A program made the translations under genes and the position numbers. The notes beneath the pieces are model-generated. The model was not told where the DNA came from and ran no database searches. It saw nothing but the letters and a program-made list of their open reading frames with translations. A DNA stretch of 44,588 nucleotides from Candidatus Njordarchaeota archaeon (GTDB taxonomy: Archaea; Asgardarchaeota; Njordarchaeia; Njordarchaeales; Panguiarchaeaceae): NCBI GenBank assembly GCA_029856685.1, contig JAHKKZ010000005.1:1-44588 (forward strand), read 5' to 3'. Positions 26,581 through 33,996 of the stretch are shown piece by piece; the stretch's first letter is position 1, and each line of letters begins with the position of its first letter.

Positions 26581-27168
26581 CTAAATGATTGTTCTTCTCT
26601 TCTTAAGGTAGGTCTTAATTAGTATCTCAGCAAGTTTTTGGAAAACCTCCTCAACATTTACATAGTTTATTGCGCTAGCCTCTAGGTACTCCACAAAAAC
26701 ATCGTACTTCTTAGCCAGAAACTCAGCGTATTTTTCTCCAGCAGAAGGGGGAACGCATTGCATCTTGTCGCGTAAATCAATCTTATTGCCAACAATGACT
26801 AAAGGCTTTGCCCCACCTGAATATGTATAGAACTCTTGTATCCAATAGGATAAGCTTCTCAAAGTTTCTGGACGTGAAACATCAAACACGGCGATGCCCG
26901 CTTGTGCACTAACATAATACTGGGGTCGGACGGCTCGCCAGTGAGGCTGCCCAGCTAAGTCCCATATGATATACCTGAAGATCATAGTGCCAAGAGATGG
27001 ATTGCTAAGCTGTATTTCCTTCACAAATATGTCTGCTCCGATAGTCGCCCGATAAGAAGTATCAGCCAGAGCTTTTCCTCTGATAAAAGATTTAATGAGA
27101 GTAGTTTTTCCAACACCACCATCGCCGATGAGGACTATCTTAACGTTTGCTGAGTATCTACTGGACAC
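26581..27168 (-). CDS. Rab/Ras-like small GTPase
   Basis: G1 GDGGVGKTT, G2 YRATIGADI, G3 WDLAGQ, G4 NKID, G5-like EASAIN. Confidence 0.95.
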   Translation of the reverse strand: MSSRYSANVKIVLIGDGGVGKTTLIKSFIRGKALADTSYRATIGADIFVKEIQLSNPSLGTMIFRYIIWDLAGQPHWRAVRPQYYVSAQAGIAVFDVSRPETLRSLSYWIQEFYTYSGGAKPLVIVGNKIDLRDKMQCVPPSAGEKYAEFLAKKYDVFVEYLEASAINYVNVEEVFQKLAEILIKTYLKKRRTII

Positions 27169-27285: not shown

Positions 27286-28392
27286 ATGAAAATTATAAGG
27301 CTGGAGGCAAAGGCGATTCGTGTTCCTCTCATAGAAGAGTTCAGAACATCTCTCGGAGGCTCGATTCAGCATGAAGGTGTCATAGTCAAGATATACACAG
27401 ATGAGGGTATTGTTGGGATCGGCGAAGCCGCTCCGAGCGCTCGTATAACTGGGGAGACTATCGAAACAATACTGGGAGTTATTTCGAGGTTAAAGAATAT
27501 TATGCTTGGCAGCAACCCTCTAGAATATCGAAGAATAATAGAATCCATAGATGATGCTGTGATAGGGAACCCATCTGCGAAGGCAGCATTAGATATAGCT
27601 ATATTTGATGTTGTTGCTAAGAAATATGGTGTGCCTCTATATAGGTTGCTTGGCGGCTCAGATAACTCATTTGAAACTTCCGTTACTATTGGAATAATGC
27701 CTCAGGAGAAAGCAATATATAAGGCCCAGAAATACGTTGAGCAAGGAATAAGAATACTAAAAATAAAAATTGGCACTAATCCCACTAGAGATGTAGATTT
27801 ACTCAAAAAAATACGCCAAATAATAGGTGATGATGTTAGGATAAGAATAGATGCCAATCAAGGCTATACAGTCAAACAAGCAATACGTGTCTTAAAAGCA
27901 ATCGAGAATCTAGATATCGAATTCTGCGAGCAGCCTGTCCACTGGCGGGATCTAGATGGGATGCGGGAAGTAAGGAGAAATACTGAGATACCAATAATGG
28001 CAGATGAATCTGTACACGGCCCGAGAGATGCTATTGAGATAATAAAGATGGATGCTGCTGACATGATAAACATAAAAATCATGAAAGCAGGGGGGATTCT
28101 GAATTCCCTAAAAATAGCTGATATTTGCGACTCATATGGTATGAAGTGCCAGATTGGATGTATGAGTGAAACTCAGATATCAATAGCAGCAGGAGTAAGT
28201 GTCGCTATAGCTGCTCGATCCATAGAATTTTCTGACTTGGACGGATACATACTGCTCAAGGAAAACATAGCATCTGGCATAAAATTTGATGGTGTAAGGA
28301 ATATTCTGCCTGATAAGCCAGGATTGGGTGTGGAAATAAAGGAGGATATTCTAAGAAAATATGTTGTAGCATCGGTCAGATTCGAGGAATAA
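27286..28392 (+). CDS. Enolase-superfamily mandelate racemase/muconate lactonizing enzyme (dipeptide epimerase-like)
   Basis: KAALDIAIFDVVAKKYGVPLYRLLGG, LKIKIG, RIDANQGY, EQPVHWRDLDGMREVRRNTEIPIMADESV, NIKIMKAGGI. Confidence 0.9.
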   Translation: MKIIRLEAKAIRVPLIEEFRTSLGGSIQHEGVIVKIYTDEGIVGIGEAAPSARITGETIETILGVISRLKNIMLGSNPLEYRRIIESIDDAVIGNPSAKAALDIAIFDVVAKKYGVPLYRLLGGSDNSFETSVTIGIMPQEKAIYKAQKYVEQGIRILKIKIGTNPTRDVDLLKKIRQIIGDDVRIRIDANQGYTVKQAIRVLKAIENLDIEFCEQPVHWRDLDGMREVRRNTEIPIMADESVHGPRDAIEIIKMDAADMINIKIMKAGGILNSLKIADICDSYGMKCQIGCMSETQISIAAGVSVAIAARSIEFSDLDGYILLKENIASGIKFDGVRNILPDKPGLGVEIKEDILRKYVVASVRFEE

Positions 28393-28760: not shown

Positions 28761-30212
28761 TTAACTGAAATTCCTTTCAAGTAGACCTTTATATACCGAG
28801 CTAAATATTTTAGTTAAAGCACCAATAGGGGTTATCGCTGAAATGACAATATCGTCTGGATGTATCCTTATATAACCATGATTCGTAAGCATCCAATATG
28901 ATATATGGATTCGTGTGAAGGTTGAGATTATGTTTTTTTCGAATGATGTCCATTCCAACTTATACTGTGGGAAGACAAAGCCAAATACCGTTTTTGCTTT
29001 AAGTGAGTCCCTATTACCCGAGAACGTTATTAGAGCCCTACTCGAATTTAGTTTGACCCTAAGAAAAACCTTACCTTGGCGGAGATATCTGTGGATAATC
29101 TCGTGCTCAGACGAAATTTTTGGCTTACCAAGTTTCTCGATTTCTGGTACTCCGCTCCTAAGAGATGTCTGAAGTTTTACTCCAAGCATGTCTAAATAGG
29201 GCCTTATATTCTCAATCATCTCTAGAACACATTTACGGGCTGAGACAGTATCTCCATTTTCCGTTATAAAATCTGCGTTAATCCCATCTTTTATCGCACG
29301 TAACCGATTTTCCTCTAGAGACTTACTCTCAACAATTTTTTGTTTTCTACGCAGAAGATCTATTGCCTCCAGAGCAATGCCCATCAGAATATGTGTCACA
29401 TCGACCAGATAATCAACTGTCGATGGATTATCTATAAATCTTATCTCAACCCTGCTAGACTCTGGGCCTGAACCATAATCCTCAATAATATTTGTGTAGG
29501 GGCCACGGGGAGTGATGTCTAAGAGGCGGATACCTACGCGGTCTGCTACAACTTTGTGTTCATATCTTTTATCCCGCGTGAAAATAAAAGCATATTTTAA
29601 AATAGCTCTTTTTTCACGTGGGATAATCGTTGCTTTGCTTCTTCTGATGATGGCGTAGCGACTTGGTCGGAGAACACGACTATAGTGTAGGCGGGTGCTA
29701 GCATAGCCTGAGTACTCTCCAGACATTACCGGTGAGTTTGCGGTGAGCGCTATGAGCTCAGGCAAATAGCGTCTTACATTGTTATGTACATATACAAGGA
29801 ACTTCCTAGGCATAGATTTTCTTCGTTTAGGTACTACCGATATGCTTATATGTGTCCCATTTATTGGAAATGGATTCGACTGTATTGGATGTACACTCCC
29901 AGCATAGATCATGAGTTTTCTTCTGCTAGCGACTTCACCTAGGTATGTTCGTATGAGCTTCATAGTTTTCTCTACAAGCAGAAAGTTTAGTGGCTGTGTT
30001 ACGACTTCAAGCTGAGCTGGATGAGGCTCCCACTGGATTCCATATATAAATCTTTTCAAAAATCCTATGTCGATTCTCTTATTAACGATATCATCAATTA
30101 TCTCTTTTATTATTAGGTCTGCCGCTGGTACAATAAAACCCTTGTTGTTGACTGTCAATAATTCGTTTTCTATGCCTACCCTTATTTTAAGATTTTCGAT
30201 GAAGCCCTCCAT
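28761..30212 (-). CDS. GCS2-like glutamate-cysteine ligase/carboxylate-amine ligase homologue
   Basis: VGIENELLTV, IQWEPHPAQLEVVTQPL, YAGSVHPIQSNPFPINGTHISISV, LIALTANSPVMSGEYSGYASTRLHY. Confidence 0.82.
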   Translation of the reverse strand: MEGFIENLKIRVGIENELLTVNNKGFIVPAADLIIKEIIDDIVNKRIDIGFLKRFIYGIQWEPHPAQLEVVTQPLNFLLVEKTMKLIRTYLGEVASRRKLMIYAGSVHPIQSNPFPINGTHISISVVPKRRKSMPRKFLVYVHNNVRRYLPELIALTANSPVMSGEYSGYASTRLHYSRVLRPSRYAIIRRSKATIIPREKRAILKYAFIFTRDKRYEHKVVADRVGIRLLDITPRGPYTNIIEDYGSGPESSRVEIRFIDNPSTVDYLVDVTHILMGIALEAIDLLRRKQKIVESKSLEENRLRAIKDGINADFITENGDTVSARKCVLEMIENIRPYLDMLGVKLQTSLRSGVPEIEKLGKPKISSEHEIIHRYLRQGKVFLRVKLNSSRALITFSGNRDSLKAKTVFGFVFPQYKLEWTSFEKNIISTFTRIHISYWMLTNHGYIRIHPDDIVISAITPIGALTKIFSSVYKGLLERNFS

Positions 30213-31200
30213 AGCTTTTCACTCCGCTAAATTTCTTGATGAATTTGACAAGAGCCCGAATAATCCTGCGTAAATCCCTCCTCGTAGCCTCTCCAGAGAT
30301 TTCAAGCTGAACTGTGCTCACCAACGGAATATTAGAGTGATAGAAGGTAATATCGCCTCCAACGAACCTCGAGTTTGTGCCATAGGTAACATCATTTGAA
30401 TCGAAGATTTGCATTAACATATCCAGATACTTCTTAGGAATCGAAAAACCATACCATGTGCCTATCTCAACCAAGTGTTCTCTTGTACTACTCGATGTAT
30501 GAAGATCGATAATAAGCTTTATTTTTCTTTTCGCTATAAGCTGTTCAAGGATTCTTCGGAATGGCCAGACACGTCCAAGTACTCTGTTTGGGTCAGCGAT
30601 GAAGCGGGGCAAATTTGAGATTAGAGCATATGCAGATGTTCTCTTAGCGATGACCAGAGCTAGTTTTCCCGTATTTATGTCGGACTGAGGAGGCGATGCA
30701 TGCGGCGCTGTTAAAATTACTGGTAATGTACCGGGAATGTATCTGTATCCCGGAATCAGATCTTCGAATCCTTCTGGAACAAATATGCTTACTGTAGGAT
30801 TCCTTAGATTTACGAATACATCTTTTCGACGTAGGAGTCTTATTGTGCCCTTGCTGACTATCATCTTTTCTAATGCGTTTCTGACAGACACTAGAAATCT
30901 TTTTAGTTGTCTGGAGTTCCTAATAATAGAGTTCCCAGATAAATATAGGCTCAGCTGTATATGGAGAAAGAAGTACCAGGAAACGTTGTCTCCTAGGGTA
31001 TTGATGGCCTTTAATCGGTTGATAATTTTTTTGAATATAGATGCCGCATTGGAATTCGACGTAGCATTGGTATTTATCTCCTGGAGAGCCAAATTTATGT
31101 CTCTGTATAAAGCTAATATATGCCTTAGTAGTCTCCAATTAAGTGGAAAGCTATGTCTATTATCTTGTCTTGGCATTATCCGAGAACCCCATAAGAGCAT
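30187..31200 (-). CDS. N-formylglutamate amidohydrolase-like metallohydrolase with helical N-terminal extension
   Basis: TLPVILTAPHASPPQSDINTG, LIIDLHTSSSTREHLVEIGT, PLVSTVQLEISGEATRRDL, FGase-type metal-binding motifs. Confidence 0.72.
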   Translation of the reverse strand: MLLWGSRIMPRQDNRHSFPLNWRLLRHILALYRDINLALQEINTNATSNSNAASIFKKIINRLKAINTLGDNVSWYFFLHIQLSLYLSGNSIIRNSRQLKRFLVSVRNALEKMIVSKGTIRLLRRKDVFVNLRNPTVSIFVPEGFEDLIPGYRYIPGTLPVILTAPHASPPQSDINTGKLALVIAKRTSAYALISNLPRFIADPNRVLGRVWPFRRILEQLIAKRKIKLIIDLHTSSSTREHLVEIGTWYGFSIPKKYLDMLMQIFDSNDVTYGTNSRFVGGDITFYHSNIPLVSTVQLEISGEATRRDLRRIIRALVKFIKKFSGVKSYGGLHRKS

Positions 31201-32467
31201 ATCCTATTGCCAATACAACAAGCTCTGTTGCCTCCCTCAGTTTCTTCCATAAAGAAGAGTCAAATCCGAAAGCATAATTATCGATCTTAATGGATTTAAA
31301 AAGGTAGATTTGTCTTATATGATTTCCCCACTTCAGTATCCGTGGGCCATCGGGCACCAATAATATGGGGACATAAAGGCCTCCTCTAGAGACATTGCTT
31401 ACTCCATATTCCTCAACTAATCCCTGTCCCATGGGAATGCCAGCTCTTCTTATATGGGCACCCACAAATCGGCCTAAATAAGCATATGTTCGGATGTCAA
31501 AGGCATATCTATATGATTCACGTGGAAATGTCAGTATGTCTATTTTTTCCTGAACAACTAAGGTTATTCTCTTCGAGCCAAAAGCTCTCTTTAATTTTGT
31601 TTCAGCATCCGATGCCGATCGTATAAAGATAATGTCCTGACCCTTCTCCCCTTTATTAGGCTTAACAACAACCTCTTTACCTCTAGAAAGCATGTCTTCA
31701 GATATTGATATGGCATCATCAACGTTTTTCGCAAAGTATGTCTCTGGCAACTTGAAAGGAGCTTTTTTGTGTTTTTTAATGAAATCCCTAACAACCCTAT
31801 ATGTCCTAAACTTACTACCAGTAATCTGACCAACCTCGCTACTATTGATTATGGGCTGAGTGATATTCTTTGGAAAAGAGGTATTTCTTCTTACTATTAA
31901 GTCTGGATAAAAGTATCTTGATCCCAATCTTACGGCGATTTTACTATTTAAAACAAAAAAGTTGTTTCTGTTAGCTATGACAGCATATATTCCGCGTCTT
32001 CTAAATTCTTGTGCTATGGAAAATCTTTCTGGCATCAACAGAGGTGCTCCGTTGAGGGGGGTGGTAATCAATACTTTCTTTGGGTATTTCTCTCTAAGCA
32101 TTCTATAGAAAGTTAGCGATGCATCAACGAAAAGTCTAATAAAATCTGTCTCCTCCACATATAACCTAAAGTTTGGAGCGGAGTCAAGAATAAGCTCGAA
32201 TGCTTTTTCCATTACATATATCCCGCCAGACACAGCATTTGCCTCTAAGAAAACAAGGTTATAGTTCTCATCAAGTAAAAAATCGAGTCCGGCATACGGA
32301 TAGTTTCTAATAGCATCCCAATGTCTTTGGTTAAACTTAAACAGATACATATCGCATACCAACCTATCCATTAGAAAAGAAGTAGCAATACTAATCATAA
32401 ATAAAAATTCTAGAGTGGCATCAAAAATTAAGATAATTATTGGCGAAGCTTCTGCCTCTGCTTCCAT
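31160..32467 (-). CDS. ATP-grasp ligase, apparently circularly permuted (start codon uncertain)
   Basis: AGLDFLLDENYNLVFLEANAVSGG near the N-terminus; VLITTPLNGAPLLMPERFSIAQEFRRRGIYAV; ATP-binding EVVVKPNKGEKGQDIIFI; RYAFDIRTYAYLGRFVGAHIRRA. Confidence 0.8.
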   Translation of the reverse strand: MEAEAEASPIIILIFDATLEFLFMISIATSFLMDRLVCDMYLFKFNQRHWDAIRNYPYAGLDFLLDENYNLVFLEANAVSGGIYVMEKAFELILDSAPNFRLYVEETDFIRLFVDASLTFYRMLREKYPKKVLITTPLNGAPLLMPERFSIAQEFRRRGIYAVIANRNNFFVLNSKIAVRLGSRYFYPDLIVRRNTSFPKNITQPIINSSEVGQITGSKFRTYRVVRDFIKKHKKAPFKLPETYFAKNVDDAISISEDMLSRGKEVVVKPNKGEKGQDIIFIRSASDAETKLKRAFGSKRITLVVQEKIDILTFPRESYRYAFDIRTYAYLGRFVGAHIRRAGIPMGQGLVEEYGVSNVSRGGLYVPILLVPDGPRILKWGNHIRQIYLFKSIKIDNYAFGFDSSLWKKLREATELVVLAIGYALMGFSDNAKTR

Positions 32468-33996
32468 TCCCTAATATAATCCTCATACACACCTTGCTTC
32501 TTCAACCATACTCCATAATCTGCCAAATTCCTAAGTACAAGTGCAGCCCTTTCGGGGGTAGGATACGCGGGTATTCCAGCCTTTTCAAATAATCTTCTAA
32601 ATTTAATTGCGTACTCAGCTCCACCCACATCGCAGAATACAACGGGTTTATTCGTATTTTTCCTGCGTATAGCATCTATGAGTTTCTTTGGTAACTCATC
32701 AGTAACTCCTGGTACATGATGCAGTCCAATGATCATTATGGTGTCCGTATTTTTGTCATCCAAAGCAGCTTCCAATGCATAGACAAAACTCTCATCGGTT
32801 GCGGAGCCAGTAACATCTATTGGGTTCGCAAACGTTGAGAAGGGCACAAGAACTCCTTTTTCAATTCCCTCCTTAAGCCTTGCTAAAAGATAATCGCTTG
32901 GTGGGTTCACTCTTAATCCGTACCTCTCAGCGGCATCGGTTGCCAAGAGGCCTGCACCCCCTCCATCTGTGATTATCGTTATATTGTATCCTTGGGCGGG
33001 AGGCTGCATCGTTAATGCTTTAACAGTATCTATGAATTCCTCTAATGTCTCCGTAACTATTGCACCCATTCTTCGAAATGCCGCCTCATACATAGTATAG
33101 TCCCCCGCTAGTGAACCTGTGTGGGATGCTGCCGCCCTTGCCCCAGCCTTTGTTCTTCCTCCCTTAAGAACTACTATCGGTTTTTTCTTGCTCACCTCCC
33201 GTCCTATCTCCACGAATAATCTTCCAGCATGTTTTATGCCCTCAATATAGAACATTATCACATCGACATAGGGATCCTTTAGTGCCCACAGAAGCAAGTC
33301 TGTTTCATCGACATCAACTTTGTTTCCATAGCTTACGAATTTAGCTATTCCGATATCAGCACCGAATAGTGCGTCGAGGATTGCTATTCCCAATGCTCCA
33401 GATTGGCTTCCAAAGAAGATTGTCCCAGGCCTTGGTCGGGGAGTAGCGAGTATCATTTTATCGCCATACTTCTTAAGTTCGGGGACAAATAACATATCAA
33501 CGCCACTATGATTATCAAAAACACCTAGACAATTTGGACCTACTATTCGCATCCCATATTTTTTCGCTATCTCCGTGACCTTATTCTCTAGCTCGACCTG
33601 TCCTATCTCTGAGAATCCAGCAGTTATTATTGATAGCACCTTAACACCTTTCCTTCCACATTCATCCACGACTATAGGGACGACTTTTGCTGGGACACAT
33701 ATTATCGCATGATCTACTGGGTCTGGTATGTCAAGTATTGATTTGTATAACTTCTGTCCAAAGAGTTCCCCGCCCTTAATATTAATCCCATAGACTCGCG
33801 CCTTTAATTTTCCGTTCTGAAAGTTTTCTACAAGATTCTTAAAAACAACCCACCCAACAGACCAAGGATCTCGGGATGCTCCTATTACTGCGATCCCAAT
33901 GGGCTCAAAGAAAGGTTTGAGTTCCTTGAATGCCTGCTCGGCTAGCTCATCTATTTTTTTCGAGACTATGAAGGGGTCTATTTCCTTGTAGGACAT
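32437..33996 (-). CDS. ADP-forming acyl/acetyl-CoA synthetase alpha-type protein (CoA-binding, succinyl-CoA ligase-like)
   Basis: IAVIGASRDPWSVGWVVFKNL, IVGPNCLGVFD, SQSGALGIAILDAL, SHTGSLAGDYTMYEAAFRRMGAI. Confidence 0.92.
   Translation of the reverse strand: MSYKEIDPFIVSKKIDELAEQAFKELKPFFEPIGIAVIGASRDPWSVGWVVFKNLVENFQNGKLKARVYGINIKGGELFGQKLYKSILDIPDPVDHAIICVPAKVVPIVVDECGRKGVKVLSIITAGFSEIGQVELENKVTEIAKKYGMRIVGPNCLGVFDNHSGVDMLFVPELKKYGDKMILATPRPRPGTIFFGSQSGALGIAILDALFGADIGIAKFVSYGNKVDVDETDLLLWALKDPYVDVIMFYIEGIKHAGRLFVEIGREVSKKKPIVVLKGGRTKAGARAAASHTGSLAGDYTMYEAAFRRMGAIVTETLEEFIDTVKALTMQPPAQGYNITIITDGGGAGLLATDAAERYGLRVNPPSDYLLARLKEGIEKGVLVPFSTFANPIDVTGSATDESFVYALEAALDDKNTDTIMIIGLHHVPGVTDELPKKLIDAIRRKNTNKPVVFCDVGGAEYAIKFRRLFEKAGIPAYPTPERAALVLRNLADYGVWLKKQGVYEDYIREWKQRQKLRQ

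Follow-up and report, generated by a model that had tools for sequence, protein, structure and literature searches.

The 44,588-nucleotide stretch considered here (hereafter, the window) represents positions 1 to 44,588 of contig JAHKKZ010000005.1 of a Candidatus Njordarchaeota archaeon (assembly GCA_029856685.1), whose genome assembly measures 1.93 Mb and is 79% complete. Three consecutive, overlapping open reading frames (ORFs) are located on its minus strand at positions 31160 to 32467, 30187 to 31200, and 28761 to 30212, and specify, respectively, a circularly permuted ATP-grasp ligase, a metallo-amidohydrolase resembling N-formylglutamate amidohydrolase (FGase), and a COOH-NH2 ligase of the GCS2 type (collectively, the trio). 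A preliminary description of the locus had reported this overlapping arrangement, and had read it as two amide-bond-forming folds accompanied by an FGase-like hydrolase; both statements are borne out, the latter by Pfam scores above the cutoffs and by conserved active-site motifs. The 26-base overlap between the FGase and GCS2 genes also stands, while that between the ATP-grasp and FGase genes is probably 17 bases rather than 41, because the FGase gene probably starts at position 31176 (protein MPRQDN...). As judged from homologues, including that of a same-genus relative, the start of the ATP-grasp gene is suggested to be the ATG at position 32350 (sequence MYLFKFNQRHWDA...), with residue numbering counted here from position 32371. 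With a start near 32350, the ATP-grasp gene would no longer run into the acyl-CoA synthetase gene upstream of it, and the 31 bases that the two genes seem to share are therefore probably spurious.

Eight further genomes (nine with that of the window) carry the three genes side by side; four of these belong to the same genus or order (two being metagenome-assembled genomes [MAGs] labeled Candidatus Njordarchaeota), one is a Baldrarchaeota MAG from the same phylum, and three are of the Korarchaeia type. A chance overlap of reading frames is ruled out, since the three proteins retain the same neighbors in all eight of these further genomes, with intergenic gaps of -17 to +43 bases, even though protein identity to the window drops to 27 to 42% outside the genus. 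The gene order is ATP-grasp-FGase-GCS2 in the order to which the window belongs and FGase-GCS2-ATP-grasp in the Baldrarchaeota MAG and the Korarchaeia-type genomes; the linkage has, therefore, been kept through rearrangement. Synteny in relatives, on which the idea of a coupled system had depended, is thus present in other archaea, and structure models of the two ligases contain the ATP-grasp and GCS2 folds.

Of the 228 genomes surveyed in the phylum, 25 possessed a strong GCS2 orthologue (E value of <1e-50) and 6 a full-length permuted ATP-grasp, each of the latter (6/6) with FGase and GCS2 alongside; every one of the ten strong FGase matches in the phylum was close to GCS2. A wider scan of 85,462 species genomes, for which the ATP-grasp alignment served as the query, added the three Korarchaeia-type genomes (two of Methanodesulfokora and a relative), each with a complete trio, and the ATP-grasp was absent from 26 of the 29 genomes in the Methanodesulfokora phylum set. 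Bacterial chromosomes were covered by this pattern-limited scan alone, so that a counterpart in bacteria may exist, and a search of bacterial plasmids returned no match to the ATP-grasp, one weak match to GCS2, and, among the FGase matches listed, HutG wherever these were annotated. Synonymous divergence (dS) was saturated in a dN/dS comparison of the two same-genus genomes, which yielded no ratio. The midpoint-rooted GCS2 tree comprised a trio clade (100/100), a clade associated with histone-fused FGase (96/92), and a clade with other partners (100/99), the GCS2 neighbors in the last being a class I glutamine amidotransferase (GATase)/peptidase C26 protein, a gamma-glutamylamine cyclotransferase (GGACT), and a class II GATase-like protein with a weak PF13522 match under the cutoff. 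The constant element is GCS2 together with an amide-cleaving enzyme, with the ATP-grasp being limited to the trio clade.

The ATP-grasp gene (positions 31160 to 32350, with the ORF extending to 32467) was assigned on the basis of Pfam, a nine-sequence alignment, an AlphaFold (AF2) model, and fold matches in the PDB. Its product scores above the Pfam cutoffs of YheC/D (32.1 bits versus 26.8) and TTL (24.1 versus 20.1); membership in MptN, YheC/D, or TTL was nonetheless rejected, as scores lay far under the cutoff or matches were limited to the core. The motif which ends a normal ATP-grasp domain, GLDFLLDENYNLVFLEANA, is here found at the N terminus, where the metal-binding motif YPYAGLDFLLDENYNLVFLEANAVSGG (positions 32222 to 32302) carries D, E, and N residues that are invariant in the nine homologues. 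The nucleotide-binding core follows this motif and closes the protein (positions 31379 to 31813), with K187, K237, Q274-E275, D292-x-R294, N326, and G330-G331 being equally invariant, so that the residues expected of the ATP-grasp superfamily, including D30, E43, and N45 of the metal motif, are all retained. When aligned by HMMER with the nonpermuted TTL-type chain 6y3p, the nine-sequence profile matched in reversed order (residues 20 to 40 to chain positions 330 to 350, and residues 210 to 293 to 124 to 221), while both halves were collinear with the permuted chain 3n6x, the short-motif match being weak individually in each alignment. These alignments were clearer than a test in which artificially rotated sequences were compared with Pfam, where one member rose from 57.8 to 62.3 bits with a longer RimK match and two others were unchanged. 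Judged from these alignments, the circular permutation is real, and an assembly or start-site artifact is ruled out because the N-terminal motif is found in all nine homologues, which derive from separate assemblies.

The AF2 model of the ATP-grasp (pLDDT 80, pTM 0.82), when compared with the PDB using Foldseek, was most similar to 3k1t, a putative gamma-glutamylcysteine synthetase (TM-score of 0.58), followed by human, plant, and yeast glutathione synthetases and glutathionylspermidine synthetase. In glutathione and glutathionylspermidine synthesis, it is the second enzyme that the permuted ATP-grasp resembles. By sequence, the best PDB matches of its core are TTLL7 (E value of 2.7e-6) and a TTL-like protein (7.6e-6). 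Fold and sequence indicate partly different neighbors, since the fold resembles that of glutathione synthetases whereas the core sequence is nearest to TTL-type ligases.

The GCS2 gene (positions 28761 to 30212) encodes a member of PF04107 by both score (41 bits versus a cutoff of 21) and fold, its AF2 model (pLDDT 82, pTM 0.82, with residues 179 to 250 of low confidence) being best matched in the PDB by YbdK (1r8g; E value of 8.7e-17) and then by plant glutamate-cysteine ligase, with glutamine synthetases and the Pup ligase PafA among the lower matches. The positions that are invariant in 21 orthologues include E15, E17, E62, E69, H121, R254, E256, and R258, for which catalytic roles are predicted by analogy to the family. 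An additional C-terminal beta-rich region (residues ~360 to 483; positions 28764 to 29135) has no Pfam match and is present in the aligned Asgard and Korarchaeia orthologues, although its conservation is lower than that of the catalytic part. Outside the trio clade, GCS2 proteins end in a short aromatic tail (e.g., RLFGGFGF or RLFGDFFF; loci L047, L048, L050, L052, L053, L055, L056, L057, L058, and L059), possibly a docking peptide, which trio-clade proteins lack. Separately, loci L029 and L031, along with weak matches within the phylum, contain open frames of ~1000 to 1400 residues encoding multidomain proteins with a GCS2-like region, which occur in other Asgard families, differ from the trio, and are possibly of the transglutaminase/permuted COOH-NH2 ligase type.

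The FGase gene (positions 30187 to 31176, with the ORF extending to 31200) is assigned to PF05013 by score (35.1 bits versus a cutoff of 28.9) and by the motifs PH, R..D.N, DxH, GGDI, and QxE, which are mostly common to bacterial HutG; the Korarchaeia member L065 falls slightly under the cutoff (28.2 bits). Alignments revealed an N-terminal extension of ~140 residues (positions 30751 to 31176) in the trio version only. A second version, with a C-terminal archaeal-type histone fold in frame, lies beside and is divergently transcribed from GCS2 in four other Asgard genomes (L054:10773-11615, L049:7520-8374, L051:4744-5586, and L045:449-1303), as determined by alignments and by PF00808 matches in the two members scanned (E values of 3.2e-9 and 2.1e-9). 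In two histone surveys, covering prokaryotes and archaea, the text was found to mention no amidohydrolase.

Because the three genes stay together in distantly related archaea, we propose that the trio probably makes and unmakes a small glutamate-containing, glutathione-like compound. In the first step, as the fold and active site of GCS2 suggest, this enzyme would activate a carboxylate at the expense of ATP, with the gamma-carboxylate of glutamate being the most likely candidate, and join an amine or an amino acid to it. The permuted, glutathione synthetase-like ATP-grasp would then, again with ATP, add a second amino acid or amine to a free carboxylate of this product, and the FGase-like amidohydrolase is presumed to cleave a glutamyl amide, whereby the compound would be trimmed or recycled. 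The two ligase folds, the active-site motifs of all three proteins, and the conserved gene linkage form the observed basis of this scheme. Members of the class I GATase/peptidase C26, GGACT, and class II GATase families include gamma-glutamyl hydrolases and cyclotransferases, and FGase acts on N-acyl-glutamate; that the swappable partners of GCS2 belong to families which cut gamma-glutamyl amides argues that GCS2 makes a gamma-glutamyl amide. The trimming or recycling role envisaged for the hydrolase in the preliminary description is likewise strengthened, since other Asgard lineages swap it for other amide-cleaving families. As to the archaeal pathway for a small peptide-like product put forward there, its ligases, amidohydrolase, synteny, and folds hold, and its product can be narrowed only to the extent that a glutathione-like compound is favored over protein or tail modification.

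We consider that a small-molecule glutamyl-amide pathway working like glutathione metabolism, with a two-step synthesis and its own hydrolase, has roughly an even chance of being the correct description of the trio. Several observations weigh against it: the full-length TM-scores of the ATP-grasp model are moderate (0.58 at best); the sequence of its core is nearest to TTL/TTLL enzymes, which modify proteins; in four genomes, the FGase beside GCS2 carries a fused histone fold; and GCS2 scores under every NCBIfam equivalog cutoff (YbdK, EgtA, and GshA; at best 63.6 bits versus 176.4, for the YbdK subfamily), for which reason its substrate may differ from those of these equivalogs.

The TTL-like ATP-grasp core and the histone-fold fusion make reversible protein modification the main rival, whereby one or both ligases would attach a residue, be it glutamate or another, to the side chains or C termini of proteins in the manner of TTL/TTLL or RimK, and FGase would remove it. 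The PDB sequence matches of the core, the TTL score above the Pfam cutoff, and the histone-fold FGase adjoining GCS2 in the four Asgard genomes all favor such a function, yet in fold the ATP-grasp is best matched by ligases that act on small molecules, and the histone-fused FGase is confined to lineages without the ATP-grasp. Moreover, no conserved substrate-protein or carrier gene was seen beside the trio among flanking ORFs of at least 70 residues, the only size class scanned. In favor of the small-molecule reading, the gaps between the three genes are too short to hold a reading frame for a precursor or carrier, including the precursor of a graspetide or other ribosomally synthesized and posttranslationally modified peptide (RiPP). 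Taken together, we regard protein modification as a somewhat unlikely, albeit serious, explanation.

Transient gamma-glutamyl protection, for which the pairs PuuA/PuuD and BtrJ/BtrG are known, is considered unlikely. Under such a scheme, GCS2 would glutamylate an amine, another enzyme would process it, and the amidase would deprotect it, with the ATP-grasp acting on the protected intermediate. This would agree with the constancy of GCS2 and an amide-cleaving enzyme across the examined Asgard loci and with the restriction of the ATP-grasp to one clade, but no conserved third, processing enzyme was seen beside the pair. It also appears improbable that a cofactor, for instance tetrahydromethanopterin, is glutamylated and that the amidohydrolase trims its glutamate tail: although MptN is the top NCBIfam match of the ATP-grasp (E value of 4.5e-12) and Methanodesulfokora genomes possess the trio, this match reaches 45.6 bits against a cutoff of 350 and spans the core only, without the permuted motif, and the ATP-grasp is missing from most of the Methanodesulfokora phylum set. 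Very doubtful, too, is an Asgard glutamyl-modification cycle on chromatin or other proteins, in which GCS2, aided in trio lineages by the TTL-like permuted ATP-grasp, would write a mark of the glutamyl type, to be removed by an eraser of the FGase type that its histone fold would tether in some lineages.

Among the genes surrounding the trio, the one directly upstream (positions 32437 to 33996, minus strand) specifies an NDP-forming acyl-CoA synthetase of the alpha type, a 46% identical homologue of which is located near the trio in L066, with more distant ones near GCS2 in L050, L052, and L053. It was rejected as a core gene of the module, since it adjoins the trio in the window, the same-genus relative, and L066 and is not near the other trios. 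The gene convergent with the trio (positions 27286 to 28392, plus strand) encodes an enolase-superfamily enzyme, whose top NCBIfam match is L-Ala-D/L-Glu epimerase (273 bits, under the cutoff of 500) and which adjoins the trio elsewhere only in the same-genus relative. A Ras-family small GTPase (positions 26581 to 27168, minus strand; PF00071, 118.7 bits) fits an Asgard-type genome, and related small GTPases are found near GCS2 in several other loci.

The low-molecular-weight thiols and glutamyl compounds of archaea are poorly known. A 2020 review reported that the GshA family has matches in Asgard and TACK archaea, whereas the GshB and GshF families have none in archaea, GshB-like proteins of some methanogens excepted (PMC7278568). 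A conserved, assayable three-enzyme set of Asgard-type and Korarchaeia-type genomes, including a permuted ligase akin to glutathione synthetase, would render a glutathione-like pathway in archaeal relatives of eukaryotes directly testable, while the swapping of amidase partners provides a separate, independent clue to the kind of bond that is formed.

The trio resembles glutathione biosynthesis in having two ATP-dependent ligases which would act in succession and whose folds are those of a GCS2-type glutamate-cysteine ligase and a eukaryotic-type glutathione synthetase, and differs from it in the FGase-like hydrolase built into the operon. Eukaryotic glutathione synthetase, reportedly established as a permuted ATP-grasp enzyme by Polekhina in 1999, has in its yeast and human forms a metal motif that precedes the nucleotide-binding core in the sequence, as it does in the ATP-grasp of the trio, yet the latter has no Pfam match to the eukaryotic families (the sole glutathione synthetase match being the prokaryotic ATP-grasp domain PF02955) and shares 12 to 13% identity with the structures. 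In the yeast enzyme, the Mg ligands Asp130 and Glu146 come before Glu386 and Glu442 (PMC2845819), the same order as in the trio ATP-grasp. The trio GCS2 lies within the fold and family cutoffs of YbdK and haloarchaeal GshA (PF04107), from which it is distinguished by its C-terminal beta-rich region and by scores under all NCBIfam equivalog and subfamily cutoffs. With HutG, the N-formylglutamate deformylase of PF05013, the archaeal proteins share invariant PH, R..D.N, H149, GG.I, and QxE elements (HutG numbering), but are only 18 to 27% identical, lack the DTDWH segment, possess an N-terminal extension or C-terminal histone fold, and have no adjacent histidine degradation genes. The permuted motif order is that of CP_ATPgrasp_1 and CP_ATPgrasp_2 (PF04174 and PF14403; the latter including 3n6x, a putative glutathionylspermidine synthase), though curated cutoffs were not reached, PF14403 being touched by only one of six trio members (E value of 0.023) and PF04174 by none. 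According to Pfam, the operon partners of PF14403 are a transglutaminase and an alpha-E domain, neither of which was seen at the trio loci. No description of this ligase pair with FGase in Asgard or Korarchaeia was found in a literature search covering few subscription journals. Operons that link ATP-grasp and COOH-NH2 ligases have, however, been described, with successive ligations thought to take place (PMC4431377), and, with ligases of different folds kept in one operon in nine genomes, the trio is regarded here as a variant of already known amidoligase-hydrolase operons.

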